Positions 167 to 63,488 of a stretch of DNA of 64,000 nt are shown here, piece by piece; position 1 is the stretch's first letter; every line of letters begins with the position of its first letter. The notes beneath the pieces were generated by a model that ran no database searches, had not been told where the DNA came from, and saw only the letters and a list, made by a program, of their open reading frames with translations. The position numbers were made by a program, and so were the translations under genes. Source of the stretch: Dinoroseobacter shibae DFL 12 = DSM 16493. Its GTDB lineage: Bacteria; Pseudomonadota; Alphaproteobacteria; Rhodobacterales; Rhodobacteraceae. The stretch covers positions 1 to 64,000 of the forward strand of contig NC_009956.1 of the NCBI RefSeq assembly GCF_000018145.1. Reading direction: 5' to 3'.

Positions 167-1822
167 ATGCGCACACGATTTTGGGCAACGACTGCGGCCG
201 CGACCATGGCCGCCGTTCTGGCCTCCGGCTCGGCCTGGGCTGAAAGCGTTCTGACGATCGGGATGACGGCGGCGGATATTCCGCGCACCTCCGGTCAGCC
301 GGACCAGGGTTTCGAGGGCAACCGCTTCACCGGGATTCCGATGTACGACGCCCTGACCCATTGGGACCTGTCGTCCGAGACCGAGGCGTCGGTGGTGATC
401 CCCGGGCTGGCAACCGAATGGTCCGTGAACCCGGATGACACGACCAAGTGGACCTTCAAGCTGCGCGAGGGCGTGACCTTCCATGACGGCTCGCCCTTCA
501 ACGCCGAGGCGGTGGTCTGGAACGTGGAGAAGGTGCTCGACGACGAGGCGCCGCATTTCGCCCCCGACCAGGTGGGTGCGACCGCGTCGCGGATGCCGAC
601 CCTGCGCTCGGCCCGGGCGATCGACGAGCTTACGGTGGAGCTGACCACGTCACAGCCCGATGCGTTCCTGCCGCTGAACATGACGATGCTCTTCATGGCC
701 TCGCCGACCCATTGGCAGAGCCTCTATGACGCGGTGGATGCCGGGGTCACCGACCCGACCGAGCGGGCGGCCGCGGCCTGGACCGCCTTCGCCGCCAACC
801 CGTCGGGGACGGGGCCGTTCAAGGGCGAGACCCTGGTGCCGCGGGAGCGGTTCGAGATGGTGCGCAACGAGAATTACTGGGACCCGGCGCGCACGCCGAC
901 CATCGACCGGGTGGTTCTGGTGCCGCTGCCGGATGCCAACGCGCGCACGGCGGCCTTGCTGTCGGGGCAGGTGGACTGGATCGAGGCGCCCGCGCCGGAC
1001 GTGATCCCGCGCATCGAATCCCAGGGCAACGTGATCTACGCCAACCCGCAGCCCCATGTCTGGCCCTGGCAGCTGTCCTTCGTGGAGGACTCGCCCTGGC
1101 TCGACAAGCGGGTGCGCCATGCGGCCAACCTGTGTGTGAACCGCGAGGAGCTGCGGGTGCTTCTGGGGGGCTACATGGGGGTGCCCCAGGGCACGGTGAA
1201 CGAGGGCCATCCGTGGTGGGGCAACCCGTCCTTCGAGATCAAGTATGACCCGGATGCGGCGCGCGCGCTGATGGAAGAGGCCGGGTTCGGCCCGGACAAC
1301 CCGCTGAGCGTGACGGTGCAGACCTCGGCCTCGGGGTCGGGCCAGATGCAGCCGGTGACCATGAACGAGTATGTCCAGCAGAACTTGGCGGAGTGTCATT
1401 TCGACGTGAACCTGGACGTGATCGAGTGGAACACGCTGTTCAACAACTGGCGGGCCGGGGCGAAATCCGAGGGCGCGCGGGACGCGGATGCGATCAACGT
1501 CTCCTTTGCGACGATGGACCCGTTCTTTGCCATGGTGCGGTTCGTCTCGACCGAGACCTTCCCGCCGGTGTCGAACAACTGGGGCTTCTTCGGCAATGAC
1601 GAGTTCGACGCGCTGATCGCGGAGGCGCGGACCTCCTTCGACGATGCGGACCGGGATGCGGCGCTCGCACGGCTCCATGCCCGGGTGGTCGAAGAGGCGC
1701 CCTTCGTCTGGATCGCCAACGACGTGGGACCGCGCGCCATGAGCCCGCGGGTCGGCAACGTGGTTCAGCCCAAGAGCTGGTTCATCGACATCGCGCCGAT
1801 GACCCTCGACGACGACACCTGA
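167..1822 (+). CDS. ABC transporter periplasmic binding protein, family 5 (peptide/opine type)
   Basis: Binding protein of 551 residues that captures a small solute, probably a peptide, opine or related nitrogen compound, in the periplasm. A clear Sec signal peptide covers about residues 1-25, ending in SAWA. The body has the family-5 (SBP_bac_5, DppA/OppA-like) pattern: a WTFKLREGVTFHDGSPF segment near residue 95 and GTGPFK near 215. The start is preceded by AGGAGAGAGAC, a good ribosome binding site. Two permease and two ATPase genes follow in the same direction, then a racemase-like gene. The ligand cannot be read from sequence; the racemase neighbour hints at hydantoins or amino-acid derivatives, which is inference. 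Confidence 0.9.
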   Translation: MRTRFWATTAAATMAAVLASGSAWAESVLTIGMTAADIPRTSGQPDQGFEGNRFTGIPMYDALTHWDLSSETEASVVIPGLATEWSVNPDDTTKWTFKLREGVTFHDGSPFNAEAVVWNVEKVLDDEAPHFAPDQVGATASRMPTLRSARAIDELTVELTTSQPDAFLPLNMTMLFMASPTHWQSLYDAVDAGVTDPTERAAAAWTAFAANPSGTGPFKGETLVPRERFEMVRNENYWDPARTPTIDRVVLVPLPDANARTAALLSGQVDWIEAPAPDVIPRIESQGNVIYANPQPHVWPWQLSFVEDSPWLDKRVRHAANLCVNREELRVLLGGYMGVPQGTVNEGHPWWGNPSFEIKYDPDAARALMEEAGFGPDNPLSVTVQTSASGSGQMQPVTMNEYVQQNLAECHFDVNLDVIEWNTLFNNWRAGAKSEGARDADAINVSFATMDPFFAMVRFVSTETFPPVSNNWGFFGNDEFDALIAEARTSFDDADRDAALARLHARVVEEAPFVWIANDVGPRAMSPRVGNVVQPKSWFIDIAPMTLDDDT

Positions 1823-1904
1823 GTCTGTCGCCACTCCTCGGGTCGCCGGTGCATTTCCGCCGGCGGCCCATCCTTCCCTTTTCCAGGTTTCGGAGACGTC
1901 CGCC

Positions 1905-2858
1905 ATGCTGACTTTCCTGATACGTCGCGTCGCCTACACGATCCCGATCATGCTGGGCGTGTCGCTGGTGTGCTTCGCGCTGGTGCATATCTCGCCCGGC
2001 GATCCGCTGGTCTCGATCCTGCCGCCGGATGCGTCGGTGGAGTTGCAGCAGCAGCTCATGGCGATCTACGGCTTCGACCGCTCCTATCCCGAGCAGTTCA
2101 TCCGCTGGCTCGGCCGAGCGGTGCAGGGGGACCTGGGCAATTCCATCGCCACCGGGCGGCCGGTGACGGCCGAGGTGCTGAACGCGGTGGGCAACACGCT
2201 GATCCTGGCGGTGACCGCGACGATCATCGGGTTCACCTTCGGCGGGCTGTTCGGCTTCGTGGCCGGGTATTTCCGTGACAGCTGGATCGACAAGCTGGCC
2301 TCGACCATCTCGGTCGTGGGCGTGTCGATCCCCCATTACTGGCTGGGCATGGTGCTGGTCATCATCTTCTCGGTCCAGTTGGGCTGGCTGCCCGCGACCG
2401 GGGCGGGGCCGCGCGGGTCGAGCGAATGGGCCTTCGACTGGGAGCATCTGCAATACCTGATCCTGCCCGCCGTCACCATGTCGGTGATCCCCATGGGGAT
2501 CGTGGCGCGGACGGTGCGGGCGCTGGTCGCGGATATCCTGCAACAGGAATATGTCACCGGGCTGCGGGCCAAGGGGCTCCTGGATCGCGGGGTTCTGGCT
2601 CATGTGATCAAGAACGCCGCCCCCACGGCCCTGGCGGTGATGGGGCTGCAGCTGGGCTACCTGCTGGGCGGATCGATCCTGATCGAGACGGTGTTTTCCT
2701 GGCCCGGGACGGGGTTCCTGCTGGGACAGGCGATTTTCCAGCGTGACCTGCCGTTGTTGCAGGGGACGATCCTGGTGCTGGCGATGTTCTTCGTCATTCT
2801 CAACCTGCTGGTGGATGTCGCGCAGAGCGCGCTCGATCCCCGGCTGCAAAGGAGCTGA
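1905..2858 (+). CDS. ABC transporter permease, DppB/OppB type
   Basis: Inner-membrane permease of 317 residues, the usual DppB length. It begins with the typical LIRRVAYTIPIMLGVSLVCF first membrane helix and the FxxxHxxPGDP motif of this family. The EAA-like coupling loop (LRAKGLLDRGVLAHVIKNA) near residues 222-240 contacts the ATPase. It follows the binding protein by about 80 bp and is followed 3 bp later by the second permease, so they are co-transcribed and form a heterodimeric channel. Confidence 0.92.
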   Translation: MLTFLIRRVAYTIPIMLGVSLVCFALVHISPGDPLVSILPPDASVELQQQLMAIYGFDRSYPEQFIRWLGRAVQGDLGNSIATGRPVTAEVLNAVGNTLILAVTATIIGFTFGGLFGFVAGYFRDSWIDKLASTISVVGVSIPHYWLGMVLVIIFSVQLGWLPATGAGPRGSSEWAFDWEHLQYLILPAVTMSVIPMGIVARTVRALVADILQQEYVTGLRAKGLLDRGVLAHVIKNAAPTALAVMGLQLGYLLGGSILIETVFSWPGTGFLLGQAIFQRDLPLLQGTILVLAMFFVILNLLVDVAQSALDPRLQRS

Positions 2859-2861
2859 GCC

Positions 2862-3749
2862 ATGGCGGTAACGGCATCCGAGATAAGCCTGATCGCACAG
2901 GCCGAGAAGCCCGAGGGCTACTGGCGGTCGGTCGGACGGCGCTTCATGCGCGACAAGGTGGCGGTGGGCGCGGGGCTCGTCGCCGGGGGGCTGATCCTGA
3001 TGGCGGTCTTTGCGCCCTGGATCGCGCCGCAGGACCCGCTGGACGGGAGCATGATGGACCGGCTGTCGCCCATCGGGACCGAGGGCTATCCCCTGGGTGC
3101 GGACGAGTTGGGCCGCGACATGCTGAGCCGGCTGATCTACGGCGCGCGATTGTCCCTGTTCATGGGGGTGACGCCGGTTCTGATCGCGTTCTTCATCGGC
3201 TCGGCCATCGGGATCGCGGCGGGCTATGCGGGGGGCTGGGTGAACTCGGCCACCATGCGGGTGCTCGATGTTCTGTATGCCTTCCCGTCCGTCCTGCTGG
3301 CGATTGCGATTTCCGGCGCGCTGGGGGCGGGGATCGCCAACGGGCTTCTGTCGCTGACGGTGGTGTTCATCCCGCCGATTGCGCGGGTCGCCGAGAGCGT
3401 GACCACCGCGGTGCGGGAGCTGGAATACGTGGAGGCCGCCAAGGCCAGCGGGGCCTCGGCCCTGTCCATCGTGCGCCACCATGTGCTGGGCAATGTGCTG
3501 GGCCCGATCTTCGTCTATGCCACCAGCCTGATTTCCGTGTCGATGATCCTGGCGGCCGGTCTGTCCTTCCTGGGCCTGGGCGTGAGCCCGCCCAACGCGG
3601 AATGGGGGCTGATGCTGAACACGCTGCGCAACGCGATCTACGTGCAGCCTTGGCTGGCGGCCCTGCCGGGGGTGATGATCTTCCTCACGTCGATTTCCTT
3701 CAACATGCTCAGTGACGGACTGCGCTCTGCCATGGATATCAAGCAATGA
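2862..3749 (+). CDS. ABC transporter permease, DppC/OppC type
   Basis: Second permease, 295 residues, of the DppC class. The N-terminus has the family's cytoplasmic helix and FMRDKVAVGAGLV membrane segment, followed by the HPLGxDxLGRDxLSR-like motif (here YPLGADELGRDMLSRLIYGAR) near residues 77-97. The coupling loop (AAKASGASALSIVRHHVLGN) lies near 193-212. Its stop overlaps the next gene's start (ATGA, 3746-3749), showing translational coupling to the ATPase. Partner of the preceding permease. Confidence 0.92.
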   Translation: MAVTASEISLIAQAEKPEGYWRSVGRRFMRDKVAVGAGLVAGGLILMAVFAPWIAPQDPLDGSMMDRLSPIGTEGYPLGADELGRDMLSRLIYGARLSLFMGVTPVLIAFFIGSAIGIAAGYAGGWVNSATMRVLDVLYAFPSVLLAIAISGALGAGIANGLLSLTVVFIPPIARVAESVTTAVRELEYVEAAKASGASALSIVRHHVLGNVLGPIFVYATSLISVSMILAAGLSFLGLGVSPPNAEWGLMLNTLRNAIYVQPWLAALPGVMIFLTSISFNMLSDGLRSAMDIKQ

Positions 3750-4741
3750 CCAAGCAAGACACATCCGGCGCGGTTCTGTCGGCGCATAACCTGGTGAAGC
3801 ATTTTCCCCTGGGCGGCTGGGGGAAGAACCGGCGCGTGGTGCGCGCGGTCGATGACGTGACCTTCGAGGTCGCCCCGGGCGAGACTCTGGGCGTTGTCGG
3901 CGAGAGTGGCTGCGGCAAGTCCACCACGGCGCGATTGCTGGTGCAGTTGCTCGGCGCCGATAGTGGCGAGGTGCGGTTCCAGGGCCATGTGGCCGGGACG
4001 GAAATGCCCCTGAAAGAGTTTCGCCGCCATGTGCAGATGGTGTTCCAGGACAGCTATGCCTCGCTGAACCCGCGGATGAGCATGCTGGATGCCATCGCCT
4101 TCGGGCCGACGGTGCACGGGGTGTCCGAGGCCGAGGCGCAGCGCATCGCGCGCGACCTGCTGGACCGGGTCGGGCTTGATCCGTCGCGCTTCGGGCCGCG
4201 TTATCCGCATGAATTGTCGGGCGGGCAGCGGCAGCGGGTGAATATCGCGCGGGCGCTGGCCTTCCAGCCGGAGGTGATCGTGCTCGATGAGGCGGTCTCG
4301 GCGCTCGACAAGTCGGTGGAGGCGCAGGTTCTCAACCTGCTGATGGACCTCAAGCGCGAGCGGAACCTGACCTATGTGTTCATCTCCCACGATCTGAACG
4401 TGGTGCGGCACGTGTCGGACCGGGTAATGGTGATGTATCTGGGCGAGGTGGCCGAGATCGGGCCGACCGCCGAGATGTATGCCGACCCGCGCCATCCTTA
4501 TACCCGCGCCCTGCTGGCGGCGATGCCGTCGCTCGACCCGGATCGGCGCACGACCGAGGCGCCCCTGTCGGGCGATCCTCCGAACCCGATCGATCCGCCC
4601 TCGGGCTGCCGGTTCCATACCCGCTGCGCCGAGGCGTTCGGGGCGTGTTCCGCCCAACGGCCGTCGAACCTGCGCGTGGGGGCGGGACATTACGCGTCCT
4701 GTCACCTCAACGATCCCAAGATGCGGGAGGCCGCGGCATGA
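3746..4741 (+). CDS. ABC transporter ATP-binding protein, DppF/OppF type
   Basis: Cytoplasmic ATPase of 331 residues that powers the importer. Walker A is GESGCGKST near residues 52-60, the signature LSGGQRQR near 155, Walker B VIVLDEA near 175 and the switch histidine in ISHDLN near 212. The C-terminal oligopeptide/dipeptide extension with cysteines (CRFHTRCAEAFGACS) is typical of this subfamily, some of whose members bind an Fe-S cluster there. The start overlaps the preceding permease and the stop overlaps the next ATPase (ATGA at 4738), so all are one operon. Confidence 0.92.
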   Translation: MTKQDTSGAVLSAHNLVKHFPLGGWGKNRRVVRAVDDVTFEVAPGETLGVVGESGCGKSTTARLLVQLLGADSGEVRFQGHVAGTEMPLKEFRRHVQMVFQDSYASLNPRMSMLDAIAFGPTVHGVSEAEAQRIARDLLDRVGLDPSRFGPRYPHELSGGQRQRVNIARALAFQPEVIVLDEAVSALDKSVEAQVLNLLMDLKRERNLTYVFISHDLNVVRHVSDRVMVMYLGEVAEIGPTAEMYADPRHPYTRALLAAMPSLDPDRRTTEAPLSGDPPNPIDPPSGCRFHTRCAEAFGACSAQRPSNLRVGAGHYASCHLNDPKMREAAA

Positions 4742-39386: not shown

Positions 39387-40162
39387 CCCGTCACGAAACC
39401 TTCCCCCCCTCCCCCATCGCCGACAAGGACCTGGTGCTTGCCACCGATCTCGACGGCACCTTCCTCGGCGGCACCGACGCCGACCGCGCCACCTTCTACA
39501 ACTGGATCGAGGCGAACCGCGCCCGGGTCGGCCTGATCTTCGTCACCGGCCGCGACGCCGGGTTCATCAGCCAGATGGCCCGCCGCGGCGAGGTGCCCAA
39601 GCCCGATTACGTGGTGGGCGACGTCGGCACGACCATCGCCGAAATGGGCAAGACCGACCATTTTCTCAGCCCGATCGAGATGCTGGAGGCGGATATCGCC
39701 GACGCCTGGGGCGATGCGGGCACGCGGGTGCAGGCCGCCCTGCGCGGGGTGAAGGGGTTGCGTTTGCAATCGACGGGCTTCCGCTACCGGGCGAGCTATG
39801 ACCTCGACCCCGACGCCTTCGAGGACCGCGCCTTCGACATCGTGGCCGATCTGGGCCTCGACGCGCTGAAATCCGACAACCGCTTCTTCGACGTCCTGCC
39901 CAAGGGGGTCAGCAAGGGCCCCTCGCTGCTGCGACTGCTGACCCATCTGGGCGTGCAGAACCACAAGACGCTGGTGGCCGGCGACACGCTCAACGATCTG
40001 TCGATGCTCCGGCTCGGCCTGCCTGCCGTGGCCGTGGGCGGCTCCGAGCCCGCCCTGCTGGCCGAGGTCGAACCGCTTGATCATGTCCATGTCGCGCGCG
40101 GCATCGGCGTCGCCGGGATCGCCGAGGCGATCACCCACCTGAACCTGTTTCCGAAAAGCTGA
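39383..40162 (+). CDS. HAD-family sugar phosphatase, likely glucosylglycerol-phosphate phosphatase
   Basis: Protein of 259 residues of the HAD IIB (sucrose-phosphatase-like) class. Motif I is LATDLDGTFLGG near residue 19, motif II FVTGRDAGF, and motif III-IV KGVSKGPSLL and VAGDTLNDLSMLRLG. Between gpsA and ggpS it should remove phosphate from glucosylglycerol phosphate. Known enzymes for this step are StpA in cyanobacteria or a fused HAD domain in bacterial GgpPS; this is a free-standing HAD version. The substrate is inferred from context. Confidence 0.8.
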   Translation: MTRHETFPPSPIADKDLVLATDLDGTFLGGTDADRATFYNWIEANRARVGLIFVTGRDAGFISQMARRGEVPKPDYVVGDVGTTIAEMGKTDHFLSPIEMLEADIADAWGDAGTRVQAALRGVKGLRLQSTGFRYRASYDLDPDAFEDRAFDIVADLGLDALKSDNRFFDVLPKGVSKGPSLLRLLTHLGVQNHKTLVAGDTLNDLSMLRLGLPAVAVGGSEPALLAEVEPLDHVHVARGIGVAGIAEAITHLNLFPKS

Positions 40163-53380: not shown

Positions 53381-53695
53381 TTATGGCTTCTGCAGCACCA
53401 CCCGGTGGATCGACGGTTCCACCTGCCGGGCGGCCGAGACCAGCAGCCCCTCGAAATCCCGCATCACCGTCGCCGCCACGAAGGCCGAGGGCGCGGCCAG
53501 GGTCAGGCACCCGCCCTCCAGGTCCACCTCTTCGAGCTTGCTGAACCAGGTCGCGAACTGCGCCGGGTAGCTGTCGCGCAACTGCAGCTGCACCTGCGGC
53601 CAGAGCCCGCCCGCCCGGCTCACCTCCGGAACCGGGCGCAGGGGGACGACATTGCTCTGTGGCACCTCCGCCCCCTGCCCCATCCGCGTGGCCAT
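53381..53695 (-). CDS. DnaA N-terminal-domain protein
   Basis: Protein of up to 104 residues; starts at ATG 53695 or 53683 or GTG 53665 are all possible. Residues about 35-104 match the DnaA N-terminal domain (GLWPQVQLQLRDSYPAQFATWFSKLEEVDLEGGCLTLAAPSAFVAATVM). The AAA+ and DNA-binding domains of true DnaA are absent. On roseobacter plasmids DnaA-like proteins pair with parAB, so it may belong to the replication machinery of this module. It runs opposite to parA and, except from the shortest start, overlaps its 5' end. Confidence 0.65.
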   Translation of the reverse strand: MATRMGQGAEVPQSNVVPLRPVPEVSRAGGLWPQVQLQLRDSYPAQFATWFSKLEEVDLEGGCLTLAAPSAFVAATVMRDFEGLLVSAARQVEPSIHRVVLQKP

Positions 53696-54665
53696 CGTCA
53701 ACTTCAAGGGCGGCGCGGGCAAGTCCACCGTGGCGCTGCACTTCGCCCATGCCGCCGCCCTCGATGGCTACCGCGTCCTCGCCGTGGACTTCGACCCCCA
53801 GGCAACCCTCAGCCATTCCATGGGCCTGTCGGACGTGGTCGAGGATCACACCGTCTGGGGCATCATGGCCCGCGACCTGATCCGCGAGACCGAGCGGATG
53901 AACGCCACCGCCGCCGGCGCCGAGAGCGGCACCGCCCTGCCCCGCCGCCAGCTGCCCGCCGCGATCCAGGATCTCGGGCTCGGCGCGCTGCGGGTGTCGG
54001 ACTTCATCCAGCCGACCGCCTGGCCGACCATCGACATCATCCCCTCCTGCGCCAACGCGGCCTTTGTCGAGTTCGCCTCCGCCCAGTACCGCCACCTCAA
54101 CCCCGAATGGTCCTTCTTCGCGGCCGTGTCGCGCTTTCTCGACCAGATCCCGGACGACGCCTATGACATCATCCTCTTCGACTGTCCGCCCGCCATCGGC
54201 TACCAGTCCATGAACGCGGTCTTCGCCGCCGACATGCTCTATATCCCCTCGGGCCCGGGCTATTGGGAGTATGACAGCACCACCTCCTTCATCGGCCAGC
54301 TCGCCGAGGCGCTCGAGGATCTCGCCCACGGCGCCGACAGCTTTGCGCGCGCCGGGGTTACGCTTCCGAAAGTGTTTCGTGACATACGGTTCCTGATGAC
54401 GCGATACGAGCCCGGCAACGAGCTGCACCGGGCGATGTTCCAGGCCTTCAAGCAGGTCTTCGGGGACCGGGTCGCCGACAGTCCGATCGAGATGACCCGC
54501 GCGGTCGAACAGTCGGGCCGTTTCCTGTCATCGGTTTACGAGATCGACTACCGCGAGATGACCCGGGGCACCTGGCGCCGGGCGCGGGCCACCTTCGATG
54601 CAGCCTACACCGAGTTTCGCGGTCACATGCTGGCCGCCTGGGACAATCTGGAGGACACGCCATGA
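53652..54665 (+). CDS. parA: ParA partition ATPase, first module
   Basis: ATPase of 337 residues from TTG 53652 (AGGGGGACGACA precedes it) or 325 from GTG 53688. Walker A is VAIVNFKGGAGKSTVALHFAHAAALDGYRVLAVDFDPQATLS; Walker B IILFDCPPAIGYQSMNAVFAADMLYIPSGPGYWEYDSTTSF. It lacks the N-terminal helix-turn-helix of the longer ParA at 60736, but the C-terminal part (YEIDYREMTRGTWRRARATFDAAYTEFR) is clearly related to it. It overlaps parB by 4 bp. Confidence 0.87.
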   Translation: MLCGTSAPCPIRVAIVNFKGGAGKSTVALHFAHAAALDGYRVLAVDFDPQATLSHSMGLSDVVEDHTVWGIMARDLIRETERMNATAAGAESGTALPRRQLPAAIQDLGLGALRVSDFIQPTAWPTIDIIPSCANAAFVEFASAQYRHLNPEWSFFAAVSRFLDQIPDDAYDIILFDCPPAIGYQSMNAVFAADMLYIPSGPGYWEYDSTTSFIGQLAEALEDLAHGADSFARAGVTLPKVFRDIRFLMTRYEPGNELHRAMFQAFKQVFGDRVADSPIEMTRAVEQSGRFLSSVYEIDYREMTRGTWRRARATFDAAYTEFRGHMLAAWDNLEDTP

Positions 54666-55786
54666 GCAAGAAACGCCGCATGTTCGACATCGAGATGCCG
54701 CCCGAAGCCGACGCGGCCCCGCCGAAAACCTTCCCCGCGGGGAAGGTTTCACATGCTGAGACCACACCGCCCCGGCGCGGTCCCATGGCCGCGGCAATCA
54801 CCGAGACCTCGGATCACGCTCGCGACCGCGGCGCGCTGGAGGCGCAGATCCGGGCGGAAAACGACAAGCTCGCCCATGAATTCGTCCGCCTGAAGAAGGC
54901 CGGGCAGATCGTCGACCGCATCCCGCTGGACCAGATCGAAACCTACAAGCTGGCCCGCGACCGCCTGCCGGGGCTAGACCCGGAGCTTGACGAGCTGATC
55001 GCCTCGATCCGCGACCTGGGCCTGTCGAACCCGATCCGGGTCGAGCCGCGGGAGGATGGCCGCTACGAACTGATCCAGGGCTACCGCCGGGTGCAGGCCT
55101 ATCGCCGGCTGCTGGACGAGACCGGCGATGCCGAGACCTGGGGCGCGATCCCGGCGGGGATCGAGGCCCGCGGCGCGGCGCTGGAAGCGCTCTATCGCCG
55201 GATGGTGGACGAGAACATGGTGCGCAAGGACATCTCCTTTGCCGAGATGGCCCAGCTGGCCCTGAACTACGCCGCCGACCCGCATACCGCCGAGAACGAT
55301 CCCAACCGCGCGGTGGCGGAACTGTTCCAGTCGGCCAACTACTCCAAGCGCAGCTATATCCGTGCCTTCATCCGCGTGATGCGGGAGCTGGGCGAGGACC
55401 TGCAATTTCCCACCGAGATCCCGCGCGCGCTCGGCACGACCCTGGCCGCGCGCATGGACGAGATGGAGGGGATCCCCCACGCGATCCGCGAAGAGCTCAA
55501 GACCTGGGAGAACCGCTCCGTCGTCGAGGAGCTGGCCGTGCTGCGGCGTTTTGCGGGGGGCGAGATCCCCGAGGATGCACCGCGGCCCGCGCCCAAGCCC
55601 GCGGTCCCGGCAACCCCCGGCGGCACCAAGGCCAAGACCACCTTCCAGATGGAGCGCCCCCAGGGCCGGGCGAAATGCACCGCGGCCAACGGGCGGCTGG
55701 AGATCCGGTTGGAGAGGGATTTCTCGGCGCTGGAGCGGCGCAAGCTGGAGCAGGCCGTGCGCCTGTTTCTGGACCAGCTCGACTGA
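54662..55786 (+). CDS. parB: ParB partition protein, first module
   Basis: Centromere-binding protein of 374 residues. The ParB core includes IPLDQIETYKLARDRLPGLDPELDELIASIRDLGLSNPIRVEPREDGRYELIQGYRRVQAYRRL and VDENMVRKDISFAEMAQLAL, then a helix-turn-helix-like part (ELFQSANYSKRSYIRAFIRVMRELG). Near residues 20-31 the sequence KTFPAGKVS is coded by a copy of the long palindrome (54726-54749). A second copy directly follows the stop. Confidence 0.88.
   Translation: MSKKRRMFDIEMPPEADAAPPKTFPAGKVSHAETTPPRRGPMAAAITETSDHARDRGALEAQIRAENDKLAHEFVRLKKAGQIVDRIPLDQIETYKLARDRLPGLDPELDELIASIRDLGLSNPIRVEPREDGRYELIQGYRRVQAYRRLLDETGDAETWGAIPAGIEARGAALEALYRRMVDENMVRKDISFAEMAQLALNYAADPHTAENDPNRAVAELFQSANYSKRSYIRAFIRVMRELGEDLQFPTEIPRALGTTLAARMDEMEGIPHAIREELKTWENRSVVEELAVLRRFAGGEIPEDAPRPAPKPAVPATPGGTKAKTTFQMERPQGRAKCTAANGRLEIRLERDFSALERRKLEQAVRLFLDQLD
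54726..54749. repeat. Long palindrome, copy 1 (inside parB)
   Basis: Perfect 24-bp palindrome: AAACCTTCCCCG followed by its complement. It lies in frame in the 5' part of parB. Candidate ParB-binding site or mobile palindromic element. Confidence 0.9.
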
Positions 55787-55788
55787 AA

Positions 55789-55812
55789 AAACCTCCCCCG
55801 CGGGGAAGGTTT
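55789..55812. repeat. Long palindrome, copy 2 (after parB)
   Basis: Same 24-bp palindrome with one mismatch in the left arm (AAACCTCCCCCG). It starts 3 bp after the parB stop. It could double as a terminator. Confidence 0.88.
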
Positions 55813-55885
55813 CGGGGCGCAGGCGACCGAGGGAGGGCGGCCGCCCGCGCCGAACCGGGCCGGTCAGACAGGATCGGGAGAGGGA

Positions 55886-56080
55886 TCAGGCGGTATGCCG
55901 CGCCCCCCTTGGCCCGGCGAACAGCCAGATCAGGAAGCCGATCAGCGGCAGGATCAGCACCAGCAGGCACCAGATCACCTTGCGGCCGGTGGTGGCGTTG
56001 GACGAGATGATCGACACGAACGCCCAGATGTTGAGAACGAGGAGGATGAAGCCTCCGATGCCGGTGATTTCAATATCCAT
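55886..56080 (-). CDS. Small PLDc_N-type membrane protein
   Basis: Protein of 64 residues with two membrane helices (IGGFILLVLNIWAFVSIISS and KVIWCLLVLILPLIGFLIWLFAGPRG), the pattern of the PLDc_N (phospholipase D nuclease N-terminal) family found as short stand-alone membrane proteins. RBS AAAGGAGACCCCC. Last gene of the stress operon starting at 56588. Confidence 0.82.
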   Translation of the reverse strand: MDIEITGIGGFILLVLNIWAFVSIISSNATTGRKVIWCLLVLILPLIGFLIWLFAGPRGARHTA

Positions 56081-56107
56081 GGGGGTCTCCTTTGACAGGG
56101 TACAGGG

Positions 56108-56320
56108 TCAGGCGGGGCGCACTTCGGTGCAGCTCTTGAGCACCTGGTCGCCATCTTCCTGTTCGATCAGCAGGGCAGGGGTGTCGTCGCTGCCGTGGCG
56201 GGTGACCTCCGAGCCCTTGAGGGTCCTGGTCACCGTTTCGGTATAGATCTGGGTGATCTTGCCCTCGGCGGTGCCGTTGCCCCAATCCCAGGCGACCTGT
56301 TGTCCGGTTTGAAACGCCAT
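56108..56320 (-). CDS. DUF2945 protein
   Basis: Protein of 70 residues (MAFQTGQQVAWDWGNGTAEG, then KITQIYTETVTRTLKGSEVTR and ALLIEQEDGDQVLKSCTEV). It matches DUF2945, small SH3-like proteins often called hypervirulence-associated. Seven bases separate it from the upstream gene. Confidence 0.82.
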   Translation of the reverse strand: MAFQTGQQVAWDWGNGTAEGKITQIYTETVTRTLKGSEVTRHGSDDTPALLIEQEDGDQVLKSCTEVRPA

Positions 56321-56327
56321 GTTGTCC

Positions 56328-56588
56328 TCACTGGTTGCGCAGAGCGTCGATGAGGTCCGCCTTGCTCATGTCGGACCGGCCCTGGATGTCGAGTTCCTTT
56401 GCGCGGTCGTAGAGCTCCGATTTGGTCCACTCTTCATAGGGTGGGGCGGACCCGCCTTTGGACGCGGGGTTTTGGGTGTCGGAGGCCTGTGCATTGGCGA
56501 TCCGGGCGGCCTTCGCCTTGGAGGCACCGTCGTCGCGCAGGGCCTCGTAGGTGTCGTCATCCTTGATCTGGGGGCCGTGGTCGCCCAT
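56328..56588 (-). CDS. Small Rho_N/DUF7218-type protein
   Basis: Protein of 86 residues. Residues 1-50 (MGDHGPQIKDDDTYEALRDDGASKAKAARIAN) match small stress proteins of this kind; the C-terminus (EEWTKSELYDRAKELDIQGRSDMSKADLIDALRNQ) is a Rho N-terminal/SAP-like nucleic-acid-binding helix pair. First gene of the three-gene operon behind an EcfG-type promoter. Confidence 0.82.
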   Translation of the reverse strand: MGDHGPQIKDDDTYEALRDDGASKAKAARIANAQASDTQNPASKGGSAPPYEEWTKSELYDRAKELDIQGRSDMSKADLIDALRNQ

Positions 56589-56622
56589 GGCATGTCCTCC
56601 GCAGCTTGCATGTCGCGGGTGT

Positions 56623-56647
56623 AACGCGTGGGTGGCGGCAAGGTTCC
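56623..56647 (-). promoter_or_regulatory. EcfG-type promoter of small stress operon
   Basis: Minus strand GGAAC (56647-56643), 16-bp spacer, CGTT (56626-56623), 35 bp before the ATG of the first gene. Full match. Confidence 0.85.
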
Positions 56648-56651
56648 CGGC

Positions 56652-56866
56652 TCAGGCGTCTTTCAGGGCCTTGGCGGCGGTCTCCAGCGCCTCGGGCGTG
56701 CCGGCGAGCAGCAGGCAATCGCCCGGACAAAGCTCTGTCTCGGGATCGGCTAGGGCTTCGACCCCGTCGCGGATCCGGGCCACGGGGCGGGTGTCGTCAG
56801 GCAGGTCCAGCCCGGAAACCTTCCCCGCGGGGAAGGTTTCGGGCAGGGTCACTCGGCTGGGGACTG
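56652..56866 (-). pseudogene. Remnant of a TrkA_C/RCK-like protein
   Basis: The minus strand codes a C-terminal piece: LPDDTRPVARIRDGVEALADPETELCPGDCLLLAGTPEALETAAKALKDA, the TrkA-C domain pattern of ion transport proteins. Upstream the homology stops at about 56866, where different sequence begins, so the gene has lost its 5' part. The palindrome copy 3 is read through as ETFPAGKVSG. Confidence 0.6.
56815..56840. repeat. Long palindrome, copy 3 (in gene remnant)
   Basis: Perfect 26-bp version of the palindrome (GAAACCTTCCCCG and its complement). It lies inside the TrkA_C-like remnant, in frame. Confidence 0.9.
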
Positions 56867-57075
56867 TTGCATTAATCGGGTGAGTACACACCGGATCTTT
56901 TCGAAAGCCTGCCATAGCTCGTTGCCGGATCACACAGAGCGATTCTGACCAAAACACTTAGCTCGATGTTCAAACCACGACCCTCTGGCGGCATCGATGA
57001 ACGCAAGCATTGGCGGCGGCGATCCTCTCTCAATGAATCGAGAAGGTCCCTGTCGCTGGATCTGATCACAACGGT
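56862..57075. other. Scarred stretch, possible insertion-sequence end
   Basis: About 210 bp with no recognised gene. At the junction with the TrkA_C-like remnant the sequence GGGGACTGTTGCATTAAT resembles the terminal repeats of IS5/IS6-type elements. Only one end is seen and no transposase is recognised, so a deletion scar is the most that can be said. Confidence 0.35.
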
Positions 57076-58143
57076 CTAATCCTTGATCCGCCACATCCTG
57101 AATCGTCCTTGTTGCGTCACTTCTCGGATCAGGCCTCGCTCTTCCATCCATGCGAGGTTCCTTTGAACAGCCGCGCGACTTGCGCCTGTTAGGGCCTCCG
57201 CCATCGGGGCCGACACCAAAGGCCACTCTGTCAACACAGACCGAAGAGCAGCCGGAGTTCTGCCCGAAAGCTGAGACATGGCTCCTTCCGCCCGAACACT
57301 CCATGTTTGGGTACCATCTAGATGGCGCATCGCCGTCAGAATTGCGCTGTTCATCCCATCCAGCCAGCGGGCCAAACGTTCGGGTGGCAAGCCCGAAACA
57401 CGCAGCCCCCCTGCCCCGCCCATGGCGAGCGGTGCGAAGACGGCGCCGCTTCCGTCTCTGGCCGCGATCCTGGACGCCGTGACGGCGGCTTCGATCTGGT
57501 CGCCCTGCCCACCGAGACCCGCCAGACTCCAGAGATGAAAGCCCATGCAAGCCCGCGTGATCGGGTGGAGCTCGCCCGCAGCCGCCATGACGTCCAGCCA
57601 TCCAACCGCGCGATCTTTGAAGCGTTCCGCGCTGTCTTCAATGTTCTCGGGATCGCGGCGATCCAGGAAGGCGGCCAAGTCAGCCTTCGGTCCGGGACCG
57701 CCTGTCAAGCGCCGAACAGCCCATCCAACGCGTGCCAGCGCATCCGGGTCATCCTGTGCACCCGACAGCCGCATCGATATCCAGAGCGCCAGACGATCAG
57801 AACTCACCCGGTCCCCTGCGAACCAGCTAAGATCCGCCGCCTCGATAAGAGCGAGGCGGTGCCGCCAGCCTTCAGGACCGCGCAGTAGCCGGTCATCCAG
57901 AGCACCCAGGCGTCCAGCGACCCGTGCCAGTCGCGCAGCGTGAATGCCTTCTGCCTTTGCCCAGTCATCTACGACAGCAGTGTCTGGCGGTTCCGCCCGT
58001 GGCCCGGGAGGCAAATCATCCGGTTCTTCCTCGAGTGGCCCAGGCAGAAACCAGAGATCGTCTTCGTGAGCCTCTTCATCCTCCTCGATGGTGTTGAGGG
58101 GGTCATCGAAATCATCAGTCAAAGTAGAGGCTTGCATATTCAT
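57076..58143 (-). CDS. DUF1612-like helix-turn-helix protein
   Basis: Protein of 355 residues. An acidic N-terminus (DDFDDPLNTIEEDEEAHEDD) precedes a DUF1612-like core ([44 protein letters not shown]). The C-terminal helix-turn-helix (WPLVSAPMAEALTGASRAAVQRNLAWMEERGLIREVTQQGRFRMWRI) is typical of the associated HTH_13-like domain. Such proteins are frequent on rhizobial and roseobacter plasmids; the role is unknown. An inverted repeat covers its start codon. Confidence 0.65.
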   Translation of the reverse strand: MNMQASTLTDDFDDPLNTIEEDEEAHEDDLWFLPGPLEEEPDDLPPGPRAEPPDTAVVDDWAKAEGIHAARLARVAGRLGALDDRLLRGPEGWRHRLALIEAADLSWFAGDRVSSDRLALWISMRLSGAQDDPDALARVGWAVRRLTGGPGPKADLAAFLDRRDPENIEDSAERFKDRAVGWLDVMAAAGELHPITRACMGFHLWSLAGLGGQGDQIEAAVTASRIAARDGSGAVFAPLAMGGAGGLRVSGLPPERLARWLDGMNSAILTAMRHLDGTQTWSVRAEGAMSQLSGRTPAALRSVLTEWPLVSAPMAEALTGASRAAVQRNLAWMEERGLIREVTQQGRFRMWRIKD

Positions 58144-59310: not shown

Positions 59311-60357
59311 CTACCCTTCCGCCCCTATGCGCGCCCGCACGAAGCCCAGGAACGCCTTGTCGGCGCTGCGCAGGCGCGGACGGCCCGATCCGGCCCAGTA
59401 CGCGCGCCAGTCCGCCTCCAGCCCGTAGACATCCCAGCCGGGTGCCAGCGCCCGGGCCTCCTCCAGGGTCTCGGCCCGCAGGGGCGGCAGGGCCGCACCC
59501 AACCCGGGGCCCGCGTCCTCCACCAGCCCGCCGCGCAAGGCAAACGCGATCTTGTCGCCCGGCACCTCGACCATCTCGTAATCGGGCAGATGATCGGCGG
59601 CGATCATGTCGCGCAGCATCTTGCGAAACACCCGGCGCGGGGAGGCCGAGCCCGACTTCTTCAAGAGCAGGTCCACCGACACCACCCAGCGCGCCTGCCG
59701 GCCACAATGCTTGCGCGCCAACTCGTAGATCCGCCGCTCCAGGGGCTTGCGCAGCCGGAAGTAATCCCGGCTCAGCGTCAGCACCGATTTGCTGACCACC
59801 GCATTGAAGAGCCATTCCGACAGCGTCACGCTCACGCTCACCATCCGCCCGCCGCGCGCCTTGCGCACGATCTCCCAGCTCTCGATCAGCCCGAAGCCGC
59901 GCGTCACCTCCTGCCCTCCGGTGGTCAGGTTGGTGGTGATCCGCGTGCCTGCCAGCCGCTCGAACGCCTCGCGCAGCCGCCGATACGCGTCTCCGGATGT
60001 CTCGCGGTTCGTCGCCACCAGCAAATCATGGGCCTTGATCTGGAGCGTCCGGCTCACCGCGCGCCCCGCGTTCAGCGCCGCCATCAGCTGGCTGATGCAG
60101 AAGATCAGGATGTCCTTGTCGTGGATCGTGGCCAGCCCCTTGACGCTCGGGGTCACCTCGATCTCCACCCCGTTATGGGCATAGGACAGCACCCGCCTGT
60201 CCGGCCGGGTAGCGAGGCTGAACACCGGGTGCTCCATGGTCGCGAGATCATCCTTGGGGATCGCGTCGAAGATATCGCAGACGAAGAAATCCGCCTGACG
60301 ATACCGATCCGGCGCAAGCCCGCGCCCGGCGTTGGAGATACTCAGATCCGATGTCAC
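59311..60357 (-). CDS. repA: Plasmid replication initiator RepA (RPA family)
   Basis: Replication initiator of 348 residues. The family pattern is clear: QADFFVCDIFDAIPKDDLATMEHPVFSLATRPDRRVLSYAHNG, IHDKDILIFCISQLMAA and LSRDYFRLRKPLERRIYELARKHCG. It should bind the iterons at 60431-60491 just upstream and open the origin. Divergent from parA across the origin region. Confidence 0.92.
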   Translation of the reverse strand: MTSDLSISNAGRGLAPDRYRQADFFVCDIFDAIPKDDLATMEHPVFSLATRPDRRVLSYAHNGVEIEVTPSVKGLATIHDKDILIFCISQLMAALNAGRAVSRTLQIKAHDLLVATNRETSGDAYRRLREAFERLAGTRITTNLTTGGQEVTRGFGLIESWEIVRKARGGRMVSVSVTLSEWLFNAVVSKSVLTLSRDYFRLRKPLERRIYELARKHCGRQARWVVSVDLLLKKSGSASPRRVFRKMLRDMIAADHLPDYEMVEVPGDKIAFALRGGLVEDAGPGLGAALPPLRAETLEEARALAPGWDVYGLEADWRAYWAGSGRPRLRSADKAFLGFVRARIGAEG

Positions 60358-60735
60358 TGCCCGACTCAGATTTATCGTGGTTTTAGTGACACCACGCTAG
60401 GGTTATCCACAGCGCCCGGCAACCGCCTGCATCGGGGGTTCGGAGTCGCGCGAGCGTGGGATCGGAATCGCTTTATCGAGGGTTCGGAGTCACCTGCGTC
60501 GAAAAAACCACCATAACCCACTGTTCCAAAGGGAGTTCTCAAACCGGCCGGATCGCTTAACACATATATAACACGACTCTAACAGGGCTGTTTTTTTCCA
60601 GCACCCTCTCCCCAGACCCCAGAAACAGGGCCAAACCTGCGGAAATTGCTGAGAAAACCGCAGTGGTGATGTGGTTTTCCTTTCATGTGCGGTGTTTTTG
60701 CGTATATTTACCAAAACAGCGAACATGAGGCCGTC
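60358..60735. other. Probable replication origin (oriV)
   Basis: This 378-bp gap between repA (-) and parA (+) carries a perfect DnaA box, TTATCCACA (60403-60411), followed by three iterons at 22-bp steps: 60431-60447, 60453-60469 and 60475-60491. The outer two share ATCG(G/A)GGGTTCGGAGTC; the middle one matches at 13 of 17 bases. An A/T-rich stretch (about 60555-60600, including ACACATATATAACAC) follows, suited to strand opening. Confidence 0.8.
60431..60491 (+). repeat. Three iterons at 22-bp period
   Basis: Direct repeats of 17 bp, starts at 60431, 60453 and 60475. The outer copies differ by one base. Likely RepA binding sites. Confidence 0.8.
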
Positions 60736-62127
60736 ATGGCACGGGATCCGGCAGAGCAGCAGCCCCCCTATTTCAACATCGACCCGGACGCGGCTCTGGC
60801 CGAACTGGGGCCGCCCACGGACAGCGCGGGCTTTGCCGCCATCGCCGAGGCCTGCGCACGCGGCCGCACGGACCTCGCCTCAAGGGGGCTGAACGAAGCG
60901 GGGCGCAAGGAGCTGCGCCTTTTCTCCACATGGGAGATCACCCGCTACCTGATCCCCGTCGCCCAGGCCCATTTCCGACGCGTGCTGAAACAGAACCCCG
61001 ACCTGCCCCAGGGCCGCAGCGAAACAACCGGCGGCGCCAAATGGTTCACCCTCGACGAGGTGCTGACCTTGCGCGCGCATTTCGCCGCCGGGGGATCGAA
61101 GGCCAAAGAATACCGCCCCTACCGCCCCGAGGGGCTGCCCGCCAAGCTTGTCGCCGTGGCCAATTTCAAGGGCGGGGTGGGCAAGACCTCCACCGCCGCG
61201 CATCTGGCGATGTCCGCCGCGCTGGACGGCTACAAGGTGCTGGTGCTCGATCTCGACAGCCAGGGCTCCATGACCTCAATCTTCGGCGGCCAGGTCGCCG
61301 ATGAATGGGCCACGGTCTTTCCGCTGCTGGCGCGCCACTACGCCCGGCACCTGCGGGGCGAGAACCAGCGCCGCATGGACAGGGGCGAGCCGCCCATCCC
61401 CTTTGACGACACCCTGTCGGAGGCCCTCGATGTCACGGCGCAGAGCCTGATCCAGCCCACCCATTGGCCCAATATCGACCTGATCGGTGCGCAGCTGAAC
61501 CTCTACTGGGCCGAGTTCCAGATCCCCGTCTGGCGGATGCAGGCGCGGACCTGGAAGCTCTGGGATGCGCTCACCGAAAGCCTGGAGGCGGACGGCATCC
61601 TCGACGCCTATGACCTGGTGTTCATCGACACGCCCCCGGCCCTTGGCTACCTGACGATCAACGGGCTTGCGGCCTCGGATATCCTTCTGGTGCCCATGGG
61701 GGCCTCGTTCCTGGAATTCGACAGCACGGGGCGGTTCTTCGACATGCTCCATTCCACCTTCCACTCCATCGAGGAAGGCGAGAACATGGCCGCCCGCGCC
61801 CTCGGCCGGGACGAGCTGGCGTTCGAATGGGACGCGGTCCGCGCGGTCGTCACCCGCTATGACGGCGCCCAGCAGGCGGAGCTTGCCGGGCTGATGCAGG
61901 CCTATCTCGGTCGCACCCTCAGCCCCCACCGGCAGGATTTCACCGCCCTGATCGGTCAGGCAGGCGAGCAGGTTTCGGGCATCTACGAGGCCGATTACCG
62001 CGACTTCAACCGCGAGACCTATGTCCGCGGGCGCGAGACCTTCGATGCGACCTATGCCGCGTTCAAGCGGCTGCTCATGGGCGTCTGGCGGCGCGAGGAA
62101 CTGGCCGCGCGGGAGCGGGCGGCGTGA
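60736..62127 (+). CDS. parA: ParA partition ATPase, second module
   Basis: ATPase of 463 residues. The N-terminal 150 residues include a helix-turn-helix-like region (LFSTWEITRYLIPVAQAHFRRVLKQNP and WFTLDEVLTLRAHFAAG) used to autoregulate. Walker A is VAVANFKGGVGKTSTAAHLAMSAALDGYKVLVLDLDSQGSMT; Walker B LVFIDTPPALGYLTINGLAASDILLVPMGASFLEFDSTGRFF. ATG 60736 is preceded by GAGG; an in-frame ATG at 60685 is possible. Confidence 0.94.
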   Translation: MARDPAEQQPPYFNIDPDAALAELGPPTDSAGFAAIAEACARGRTDLASRGLNEAGRKELRLFSTWEITRYLIPVAQAHFRRVLKQNPDLPQGRSETTGGAKWFTLDEVLTLRAHFAAGGSKAKEYRPYRPEGLPAKLVAVANFKGGVGKTSTAAHLAMSAALDGYKVLVLDLDSQGSMTSIFGGQVADEWATVFPLLARHYARHLRGENQRRMDRGEPPIPFDDTLSEALDVTAQSLIQPTHWPNIDLIGAQLNLYWAEFQIPVWRMQARTWKLWDALTESLEADGILDAYDLVFIDTPPALGYLTINGLAASDILLVPMGASFLEFDSTGRFFDMLHSTFHSIEEGENMAARALGRDELAFEWDAVRAVVTRYDGAQQAELAGLMQAYLGRTLSPHRQDFTALIGQAGEQVSGIYEADYRDFNRETYVRGRETFDATYAAFKRLLMGVWRREELAARERAA

Positions 62128-62249: not shown

Positions 62250-63425
62250 ATGGCGAAACGCAAACGGCTCACCCCCGCGCAGCCCGGCTTTTTGGAAACC
62301 AAATCCGCAGGCGCCGACCCCGGCCCCGGCCTGACCCCCGGTTTCGCCGCGCAACAAACGCCCGTGGCCCATACGCCCCCCGCCCCGCCGCCCGCACCCC
62401 CCATCGCCCAGGTGGCCCGCGACAGCTCCGCCTCCGCGGCCCTGGCCGAGGTCTCGGCAGAGCTGGAAAGCGCTCGCGCCGAGGGCCGGCTGATCCAGGC
62501 CCTGCCCCTGCACTCCATTCGCCGCGATCACCTGGTGCGCGACCGGCTGCTGGTGGACCCCGACGAGATGATCGTGCTCAAGCAATCCCTGCGCAGCCGC
62601 GGCCAGCAGACCCCGATCGAGGTGGTCGATCTCGGCCCGGAGGCCGAGCCCCGCCGCTATGGGCTGATCTCCGGCTGGCGGCGCCTGACCGCCCTGGACG
62701 AGCTGCATGGCGGCACCGGCGAGGCCCGGTTCGGCACGGTCCAGGCGATCCTGCGCAGCCCCGAGACCGCCGAGGCCGCCTATACCGCCATGGTCGAGGA
62801 AAACGAGATCCGCGTTGCGCTGAGCCCCTATGAGCGCGCGCGCATCGTCGCGAAATCCGTCGAACAGGGGGTCTTTCCCAGCACGAAACAGGCGCTCCAG
62901 ACCCTGTTCGCCGCCGCGTCACGGGCCAAGCGATCCAAGATCGGGTCGTTTTTGCCCGTGGTCGCGGCGCTGGACGGGGTGCTGCGCCATCCCGCGGCCC
63001 TGACCGAACGGCTGGGCCTGCGGCTGTCGAAGCTGCTGGAGGACGATCCGGAGCTGGGCCGCGACTGGCGGGTGCGCCTGCGCAAGGCCGAGATCGAGGA
63101 TGAGCCCGCCGCCGAGATCGCCTGGCTGGAGGCCGCGGCGGCCGAGGCCGAAGCGGGCCCGGGGGCGTCGGCGCAACCCGCGTCGCCCCCTGAGACGGGC
63201 ACTCGGACAGCCCCCGCGGCGGCGCCGGACACACCGCCCGCCCCGCCTGCCCCGTCCGCGGCGAAACCGGCCACGCCCGCGCCGGAGGGTGCCCGGGAAA
63301 TCATCAAGGGCGTCTATCTCGAACAGGGCGGCGGCTTCATTCACCAGACCCTGACCCTGTCGGGGCCCAAGGTGGATGCGGCCTTCAAGGCCCGGCTGAT
63401 CGCCTGGCTCCAGGACCAGTCCTGA
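62250..63425 (+). CDS. parB: ParB partition protein, second module
   Basis: Centromere-binding protein of 391 residues. The ParB core is LPLHSIRRDHLVRDRLLVDPDEMIVLKQSLRSRGQQTPIEVVDLG, YGLISGWRRLTALDELHGG and VEENEIRVALSPYERARIVAKSVEQG; a helix-turn-helix part follows. A proline/alanine-rich linker leads to a C-terminal dimer domain (REIIKGVYLEQGGGFIHQTLTL). RBS CGGAGAGACATC. Confidence 0.92.
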   Translation: MAKRKRLTPAQPGFLETKSAGADPGPGLTPGFAAQQTPVAHTPPAPPPAPPIAQVARDSSASAALAEVSAELESARAEGRLIQALPLHSIRRDHLVRDRLLVDPDEMIVLKQSLRSRGQQTPIEVVDLGPEAEPRRYGLISGWRRLTALDELHGGTGEARFGTVQAILRSPETAEAAYTAMVEENEIRVALSPYERARIVAKSVEQGVFPSTKQALQTLFAAASRAKRSKIGSFLPVVAALDGVLRHPAALTERLGLRLSKLLEDDPELGRDWRVRLRKAEIEDEPAAEIAWLEAAAAEAEAGPGASAQPASPPETGTRTAPAAAPDTPPAPPAPSAAKPATPAPEGAREIIKGVYLEQGGGFIHQTLTLSGPKVDAAFKARLIAWLQDQS

Positions 63426-63439
63426 CACCCTGCCCGGGT

Positions 63440-63488
63440 GTTTCGCTGCGAAACATTCCAAAAATTGAATGTTTCGCATGCGAAACAA
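63440..63488. promoter_or_regulatory. Two parS-like palindromes downstream of parB
   Basis: TGTTTCGC-T-GCGAAACA at 63440-63456 and TGTTTCGCATGCGAAACA at 63471-63488 are perfect palindromes 31 bp apart. A half-site CGCTGCGAAACA lies at 63551-63562. The layout resembles chromosomal parS (TGTTTCACGTGAAACA). The rest of 63426-63833 is A/T-richer and holds no gene I can support. Confidence 0.75.

Follow-up and report, generated by a model that had tools for sequence, protein, structure and literature searches.

In DnaA-like plasmids, a gene for a DnaA-like replicase adjoins parA and is divergent from it. Among short repeats, a Rickettsia palindromic element is recognized as an in-frame insertion absent from homologues, and a REP (repetitive extragenic palindromic) sequence is an extragenic palindrome present in many copies. 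For RepABC replicons, the consensus of the partition site parS is GTTNNNNGCNNNNAAC, and parS sites inside coding sequence have been discussed (PMC9040568). In ParB and its relative Noc, specificity residues lie in and near the helix-turn-helix (PMC7383237). Here, a palindrome with three copies in and around the partition genes parA1 and parB1 of Dinoroseobacter shibae was analyzed in the window, that is, the whole stretch of DNA under study, bases 1-64000 of contig C3 (152,970 bp) of the D. shibae genome; the 153-kb replicon of this species has been classed as a RepA-I-type chromid (PMC9426580). The palindrome is very probably the parS of a damaged ParAB module derived from a DnaA-like plasmid.

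In the window scan, the half-site AAACCTTCCCCG and its complement stood back to back at 54726-54749, 55789-55812, and 56816-56839. The first and third copies are perfect, and in the third, one extra base per side still pairs, giving a perfect 26-bp palindrome at 56815..56840. The core of the palindrome is the 16-bp CTTCCCCGCGGGGAAG, and all three copies are candidate parS sites with no strand assigned. Copy 1 (54726..54749) lies inside the N-terminal linker of parB1, at a place common to some orthologues, and is read in frame as TFPAGKVS (within PKTFPAGKVSHA). Copy 2 (55789..55812), which has one mismatch (CCTCCC instead of CCTTCC), begins 3 bases beyond the parB1 stop codon. Copy 3 is in frame within a gene remnant, the minus-strand open reading frame (ORF) 56652..56957, the later part of which gives a profile match to the TrkA_C domain. 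The window contained seven half-site matches with no more than one mismatch, whereas 100 shuffles averaged 0.23 and never exceeded 2; outside the three palindromes, the sole match was a solitary half-site at 39396 with one mismatch. Five perfect palindromes of at least 16 bp were found in the window in all, copies 1 and 3 among them. An earlier note made from the sequence alone had placed all three copies correctly and overlooked the mismatch in copy 2; its statements that copies 1 and 3 are in coding frame and that no further palindrome copy occurs in the 64 kb both held.

A search of 295 family genomes yielded 74 ParB1 orthologues at E 1e-60 or better, and flanks were taken for all of them. 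Perfect 16-bp palindromes of one family were present in 66 of the 74 loci, 167 in total, whereas reversed sequence gave 0 and codon-shuffled sequence a mean of 0.05; the family pattern for this count was written after the palindromes had been inspected. Each palindrome consists of one of a few half-cores, CTTCCCCG, CTTATCCG or CTTACCCG, TGTCCCCG, TTTCCCCG, GTTCCCCG, and a few more, with the complement directly after it. Their places recurred: the parA 3' end (39 loci), downstream of parB (29), the parA 5' end (27), and the parB 5' end (16). The family is therefore an inverted repeat that is repeated in or next to parAB at recurring places, as is expected of parS. The exact core occurred in 19 of the 295 genomes, and 17 of these 19 were among the 74 with a ParB1 orthologue (Fisher p 1.5e-9). 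In 14 of the 17 genomes with both, all exact cores were on the contig of the ParB gene, and this contig was not chromosome-sized; the three exceptions were D. shibae itself, the draft genome G061 (3 of 5 cores elsewhere), and G063, in which the ParB contig is 4.15 Mb long. The sister cores CTTAYCCGCGGRTAAG occurred in 15 of the 295 genomes, 13 of them with a ParB1 orthologue; two of the 7 in G173, and at least 2 of the 18 in G187, a fragmented draft, were off the contig of the ParB gene. With up to two mismatches allowed, the 24-mer was found in 1 of 60 relatives (G015, beside its ParB orthologue) and in none of five genomes of the same genus. An exact 20-mer scan of a contig collection returned 104 stretches, and a ParA or ParB match was present in 40 of the 80 that were fetched, some of which duplicate genomes of the sample (e.g., L145/L032, L101/L031, and L170/L036); among the 40, the match in L166 was only 38% identical.

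The core types tracked the ParB proteins. On a tree of the 74 ParB rows, the types required 12 changes, compared with a shuffled mean of 37.4, and none of 200 shuffles was as low; eight of the 74 loci were untyped and left uncounted. The larger types, TGT, CTTCC, CTTAY, and TTT, were clustered on the tree. Furthermore, ParB residue 227, within SANYSKRSYIRAF, fitted the outer triplet of the palindrome in 65 of the 66 typed loci, with the pairs Y/CTT (31 loci), R/TGT (24), P/TTT (7), and K/GTT (3). Additional loci, which were mostly fetched for the CTT 20-mer and some of which share a genome, paired Y with CTT in 43 cases and K with GTT in 2; a further two were gapped at column 227, and two had no typed palindrome. 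The co-variation with the cognate ParB that is expected of parS was thus found, two small types remaining unclustered. The association with residue 227 is a prediction and not a proof, because relatedness inflates it. Solved-structure matches to ParB1 were weak, and those from the ParB family ended by residue 195, so residue 227 has no position on a structure.

From these sequence patterns, we infer that the palindrome is a parS bound by ParB1, that a ParB1 dimer would sit on the 16-bp core, and that the region around residue 227 would set the outer triplet. The ParAB module would have come from a DnaA-like plasmid, and ParAB1, now damaged, would be the second such module carried by the 153-kb RepA-type replicon. 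Copies in coding sequence are usual for the ParB1 palindrome family. The peptide TFPAGKVS would be a by-product, because the core types follow the ParB tree and residue 227 tracks the outer triplet. The N-terminal linker of parB is of variable length, and where orthologues carry a palindrome in it, FPAGK-like peptides are seen again. A centromere is an already known kind of element. No report of the residue-227 rule or of the chromosomal scatter described below was found among the matches listed in open-licence PMC text, a search that did not extend to the 2011 DnaA-like plasmid paper (Petersen et al.), and the only match listed in a literature text search for TTCCCCGCGGGGAA concerned maize drought genes.

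The ParAB1 module is damaged, consisting of a replicase remnant, a ParA without its N-terminus, and ParB1. ParB1 (54662..55786, plus strand, 374 amino acids [aa]) has a Pfam ParB_N match and orthologues, is the predicted binder of the palindrome, carries Y227, predicted to read the outer CTT/AAG triplet, and is 100% identical to the ParB of two Dinoroseobacter shibae plasmids. The ParA1 ATPase (53652..54665, plus strand; AAA_31) is without some 107 residues that its orthologues have ahead of the aligned part. In 95 of 96 loci in which an upstream stop was reached (same-genome doubles included), an ATG or GTG lay at least 96 codons ahead of the aligned part, with a median of 107, whereas in D. 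shibae, a stop lies 27 codons upstream of the aligned part with no ATG or GTG between. Divergent to ParA1, a 115-aa ORF (53381..53728, minus strand) matches DnaA_N (PF11638). In L120, the one relative examined in full, a 226-aa ORF (1515-2195, minus strand) with a PF11638 match adjoins and diverges from a full-length, 430-aa ParA relative of ParA1 (2683-3975). The D. shibae ORF aligns with residues 113-222 of this 226-aa ORF (36% identity) and is therefore what is left of the C-terminal part of a DnaA-like plasmid replicase. A single deletion between the divergent replicase and parA genes would account for both losses.

When the D. shibae genome was scanned with the 24-mer, allowing up to three mismatches, 10 places were found: the three in the window and seven on the 3.79-Mb contig C1, four of them perfect and three with one mismatch; the reversed-pattern control gave 0. 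Under random placement, the simulated chance that three of the genome's ten sites fall within 2.1 kb was 9.5e-05. It is unusual that the same palindrome stands on the bacterium's own chromosome at seven scattered places. Two of these are in reading frames, in a LeuC-like gene and a peptidase M56 gene. Among the sites examined, dispersed copies were intergenic in 5 of 7 cases in D. shibae, 15 of 20 in G063, 31 of 33 in the Loktanella bin RGIG994, and 6 of 7 in Amylibacter marinus; the last three samples represent 33, 58, and 11 cores, respectively, and the gene calls came from a home-made caller trained on known genes. In these four genomes, 17 site-bearing intergenic regions were convergent, 20 co-directional, and 3 divergent, leaving out the 10 sites that fell in genes and the 3 that stood at locus ends, compared with control gaps of 55, 300, and 118, which for RGIG994 and A. 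marinus were drawn from the same loci as the sites (convergent versus divergent, Fisher p 5.5e-6). The dispersed copies therefore favor gene ends and shun shared promoter regions. Even spacing of the chromosomal sites was dropped as evidence (the smallest gap gave P 0.019 and the largest P 0.079). Noc sites are scattered but avoid the vicinity of the terminus (ter). In D. shibae, dif near 1.6 Mb (PMC7901474) falls within the 954-kb gap that is the largest between sites, a position that chance allows; GC skew, sampled along G063 and D. shibae, was too noisy to place the origin or terminus.

In profiles made without duplicates and sites near locus ends, dispersed and par-linked sites agreed in their extended consensus as far out as about position 12 in both directions, and past 13 there was no T-tract. 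In the whole-genome scan of G063, which also allowed three mismatches, 36 of 37 mismatches fell outside the 16-bp core and 1 inside. The core invariance in RGIG994 and A. marinus is partly selection, because their loci were retrieved by exact 20-mer. The common consensus, the lack of a T-tract, and the near-invariant core point to a DNA-binding protein over an RNA hairpin, and the invariant dispersed cores suggest ParB binding sites. On balance, the seven chromosomal copies are better taken as extra sites for ParB1 that originated within the lineage of D. shibae, and we lean modestly toward their being bound by ParB1.

Scattered cores were also found in other genomes. In G063, the ParB orthologue is on the 4.15-Mb contig, the genome has 33 exact cores, and the 26 with known place are all on that contig; no ParA match was found within 14 kb around ParB, the span searched in this genome. 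The family N-terminal motif, as in MSKKRRMFDIEMP, was present by pattern in 64 of the 74 ParB rows; of the other ten, inspection by eye showed a variant of the motif in eight, a contig end truncates one, and the last, G063, is without the motif. Our guess is that this motif binds ParA; orphan ParBs, Noc among them, are described as often lacking a ParA-binding motif (PMC12704722), which is not the same motif as MSKKRRMFDIEMP. Two G063 cores (L076:1385 and 1637) lie 252 bp apart in similar surroundings, as if a short site-bearing stretch had been duplicated. Outside the 295-genome sample, A. marinus has 11 cores, of which the par locus accounts for 2, while 58 and 17 were counted in the Loktanella bins RGIG994 (G323) and B1Sed10 (G330), respectively. 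RGIG994 has, at L221, a Y227-type ParB broken by stop codons, beside a RepC gene and with no ParA match in the locus; because of this broken gene, the cognate ParB may have been lost or left out of the bin.

Several observations weigh against the reading of the palindrome as the parS of ParB1 or against a Noc-like use of its scattered copies. Seven of the ten D. shibae copies are far from parAB, and 8 of the 74 orthologue loci have no perfect family palindrome within the span read. Two small core types are unclustered on the ParB tree, GTT (4 rows; 30 of 500 shuffles reached as low a value) and CTTACCCA (3 rows; all 500 of 500 did), and the tree itself is a quick one with 16 of its 71 inner branches starred. 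One typed locus violates the residue-227 rule, with R and GTT, and co-variation is in any case unable to prove ParB binding. The intact par loci of RGIG994 and B1Sed10 carry GTTCCCCGCGGGGAAC (GTT type) and K227, unlike the dispersed type. In G223, a 2.2-Mb draft of 93% completeness, the sister core CTTAYCCGCGGRTAAG occurs 203 times without any ParB1 match at E 1e-4, so such palindromes can spread without a ParB1-type protein. Likewise, G023 (L089-L092) has four exact cores and no ParB1 match at E 1e-4, and G130 has one core and only a weak ParB1 match (E 6e-5). Finally, A. marinus (L160) and G061 (L145) have dispersed cores together with a ParA of normal start; because these ParAs are of normal length, dispersal does not need ParA decay.

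These points bear on four other explanations of the palindromes. That the palindromes arose by chance from GC-rich sequence can hardly be entertained: the four cores of G023 are without the AAACC extension and three of them are within long GC-rich frames, but the 7 half-sites in the window compared with 0.23 expected, the 0 of the reversed-pattern control in D. shibae, and the 167 family palindromes compared with 0.05 in shuffled sequence all speak otherwise. For the window copies, chance was refuted by the shuffle and reversed-pattern controls. A mobile palindromic element of the Rickettsia type, inserted in frame and spread, with the vicinity of parAB secondary, would account for the seven chromosomal copies and for the reading frames that hold two window copies and two chromosomal ones. 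It is nevertheless very unlikely, given a unit of just 24-26 bp, the absence of a common body in the flanks of the ten copies, the intergenic location of 5 of the 7 chromosomal sites, and palindromes at matching parA and parB places that are type-specific and follow the ParB tree. Nor is a clean insertion seen in the LeuC-like gene: the site lies in a length-variable loop that, counted by eye, has 14 residues in D. shibae, 10 in G002, its closest relative, and 20-21 in the remaining sequences of the alignment, the closest orthologue being 72% identical. The centromere of the earlier note is strongly supported by the type-specific palindromes that 66 of the 74 orthologue loci carry at preferred places. 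The mobile in-frame element that it set beside the centromere is not supported for ParB1, because 16 of these loci have a family palindrome close to the 5' end of parB, in a linker of variable length. Its suggestion that the palindrome may be both survives only in the weaker sense that a parS sequence is dispersed in some hosts. The genome search that it proposed, in which restriction to parAB loci would favor a centromere and wide scatter a repeat, gave a divided answer, with most D. shibae copies chromosomal and the cores confined to a non-chromosome-sized ParB contig in most family genomes that have both.

The other two explanations concern the dispersed copies, apart from those linked to par. 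If these were bidirectional intrinsic transcription terminators that share their sequence by coincidence, the convergent bias of the site regions and the richness of the outer arms in A and T would be accounted for. This is unlikely, since there is no T-tract past position +13, deviations break the pairing (among the seven D. shibae sites, a single unpaired change is present in three and a compensated pair in none, even though three mismatches were allowed), only one of the 37 G063 mismatches fell in the core, and a link to one ParB type would be unexpected. Alternatively, the dispersed copies may be a separate repeat read by another protein and unrelated to ParB1, with the likeness to parS convergent or a leftover. 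The many cores of the two Loktanella bins, whose only intact ParB is of the GTT type, fit this idea, as does G223, with its many sister cores, no ParB1 match, and some common flanks. However, RGIG994 also has the broken Y227-type ParB with no ParA beside it, and the exact core is strongly tied to the ParB1 orthologue among the 295 genomes. In G223, several of the seven copies seen (L307, L311, and L314-L316) share flanks and several are near contig ends; they look like a separate interspersed repeat and part of a longer unit, unlike the D. shibae copies. We therefore regard a separate repeat as a doubtful explanation, though one to be kept in mind.

Taken as parS of the ParB1 family, the palindrome provides a centromere assignment and a one-residue specificity rule (ParB 227 versus the outer parS triplet) for a partition family present in 74 of 295 genomes, and the rule could help to predict plasmid compatibility. 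The scatter of plasmid-type parS sequences in host chromosomes bears on how ParBs become orphan or Noc-like and on the question of whether the layout of a chromosome can be influenced by a plasmid that resides in the cell. It is conceivable, if rather doubtful, that on more than one occasion Rhodobacteraceae have recruited the ParB of a plasmid to organize DNA across the chromosome or to act in the manner of nucleoid occlusion, with parS seeded between host genes while the tie to ParA weakened (ParA being shortened in D. shibae and none standing beside ParB in G063). A. marinus and G061 are counter-examples to the ParA part of this proposal. A Noc-like chromosomal role for ParB1 itself is an equally tentative idea. 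If true, a recruited ParB would be an alphaproteobacterial Noc analogue that evolved from a plasmid parB.

The window contains a further partition module, separate from ParAB1, which consists of RepA (59311-60357; PF10134), a second ParA (60685-62127), and a second ParB (62250-63425). A perfect 18-bp palindrome, TGTTTCGCATGCGAAACA, lies at 63470-63487, 45 bp 3' of the second ParB gene, and is a candidate parS of the RepA-type module. Between ParB1 and the TrkA_C remnant, three small minus-strand ORFs occupy 55886-56588, and two of them match Hva1_TUDOR and DUF7218/Rho_N. A gene at 57076..58143 (minus strand) has a weak HTH_13 match, under the Pfam cut-off; of the 19 loci examined, 3 have a homologue in the neighborhood of the ParB1 orthologue (L084:4819-5841, minus strand; L109; and L114), and the gene is perhaps part of the old replicon type.

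Compared with known systems, the D. shibae palindrome resembles Rickettsia palindromic elements and REP sequences in being short and in some copies in frame, and differs from them in showing no insertion relative to homologues, no common flanks, and a sequence that follows the ParB type. The in-frame insertion typical of Rickettsia elements was found neither for ParB1, in whose orthologues the palindromes recur, nor for the LeuC-like site; set against REP sequences, the chromosomal copies number only 7, of which 5 are extragenic. The many parS of IncC plasmids and the parS mimics of the island SGI1 are similar in lying away from parAB, some of them outside the ParB-encoding plasmid; on SGI1, however, two copies on a mobilizable island act in incompatibility (PMC10954446), whereas D. 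shibae has single sites between chromosomal genes. Noc and its binding sites (NBS) in Bacillus likewise pair a member of the ParB family with target sites spread across the chromosome (PMC7383237), and the likeness is closest in G063, with no ParA beside ParB and the family N-terminal motif missing; D. shibae ParB1 differs in keeping both a shortened ParA gene and the motif. In RepABC replicons, too, the parS sites, called diagnostic palindromes, stand next to the partition genes, are type-specific for the B protein, and sometimes lie in coding sequence (PMC9040568, PMC9426580). The D. shibae core (CTT...AAG) departs from the RepABC consensus at both outer bases, the ParAB1 module is paired with a DnaA-like replicase remnant and has no repC, sites of the ParB1 family lie inside parA and parB in relatives, and chromosomal copies are present; the RepABC consensus does fit the GTT-type relatives of ParB1.

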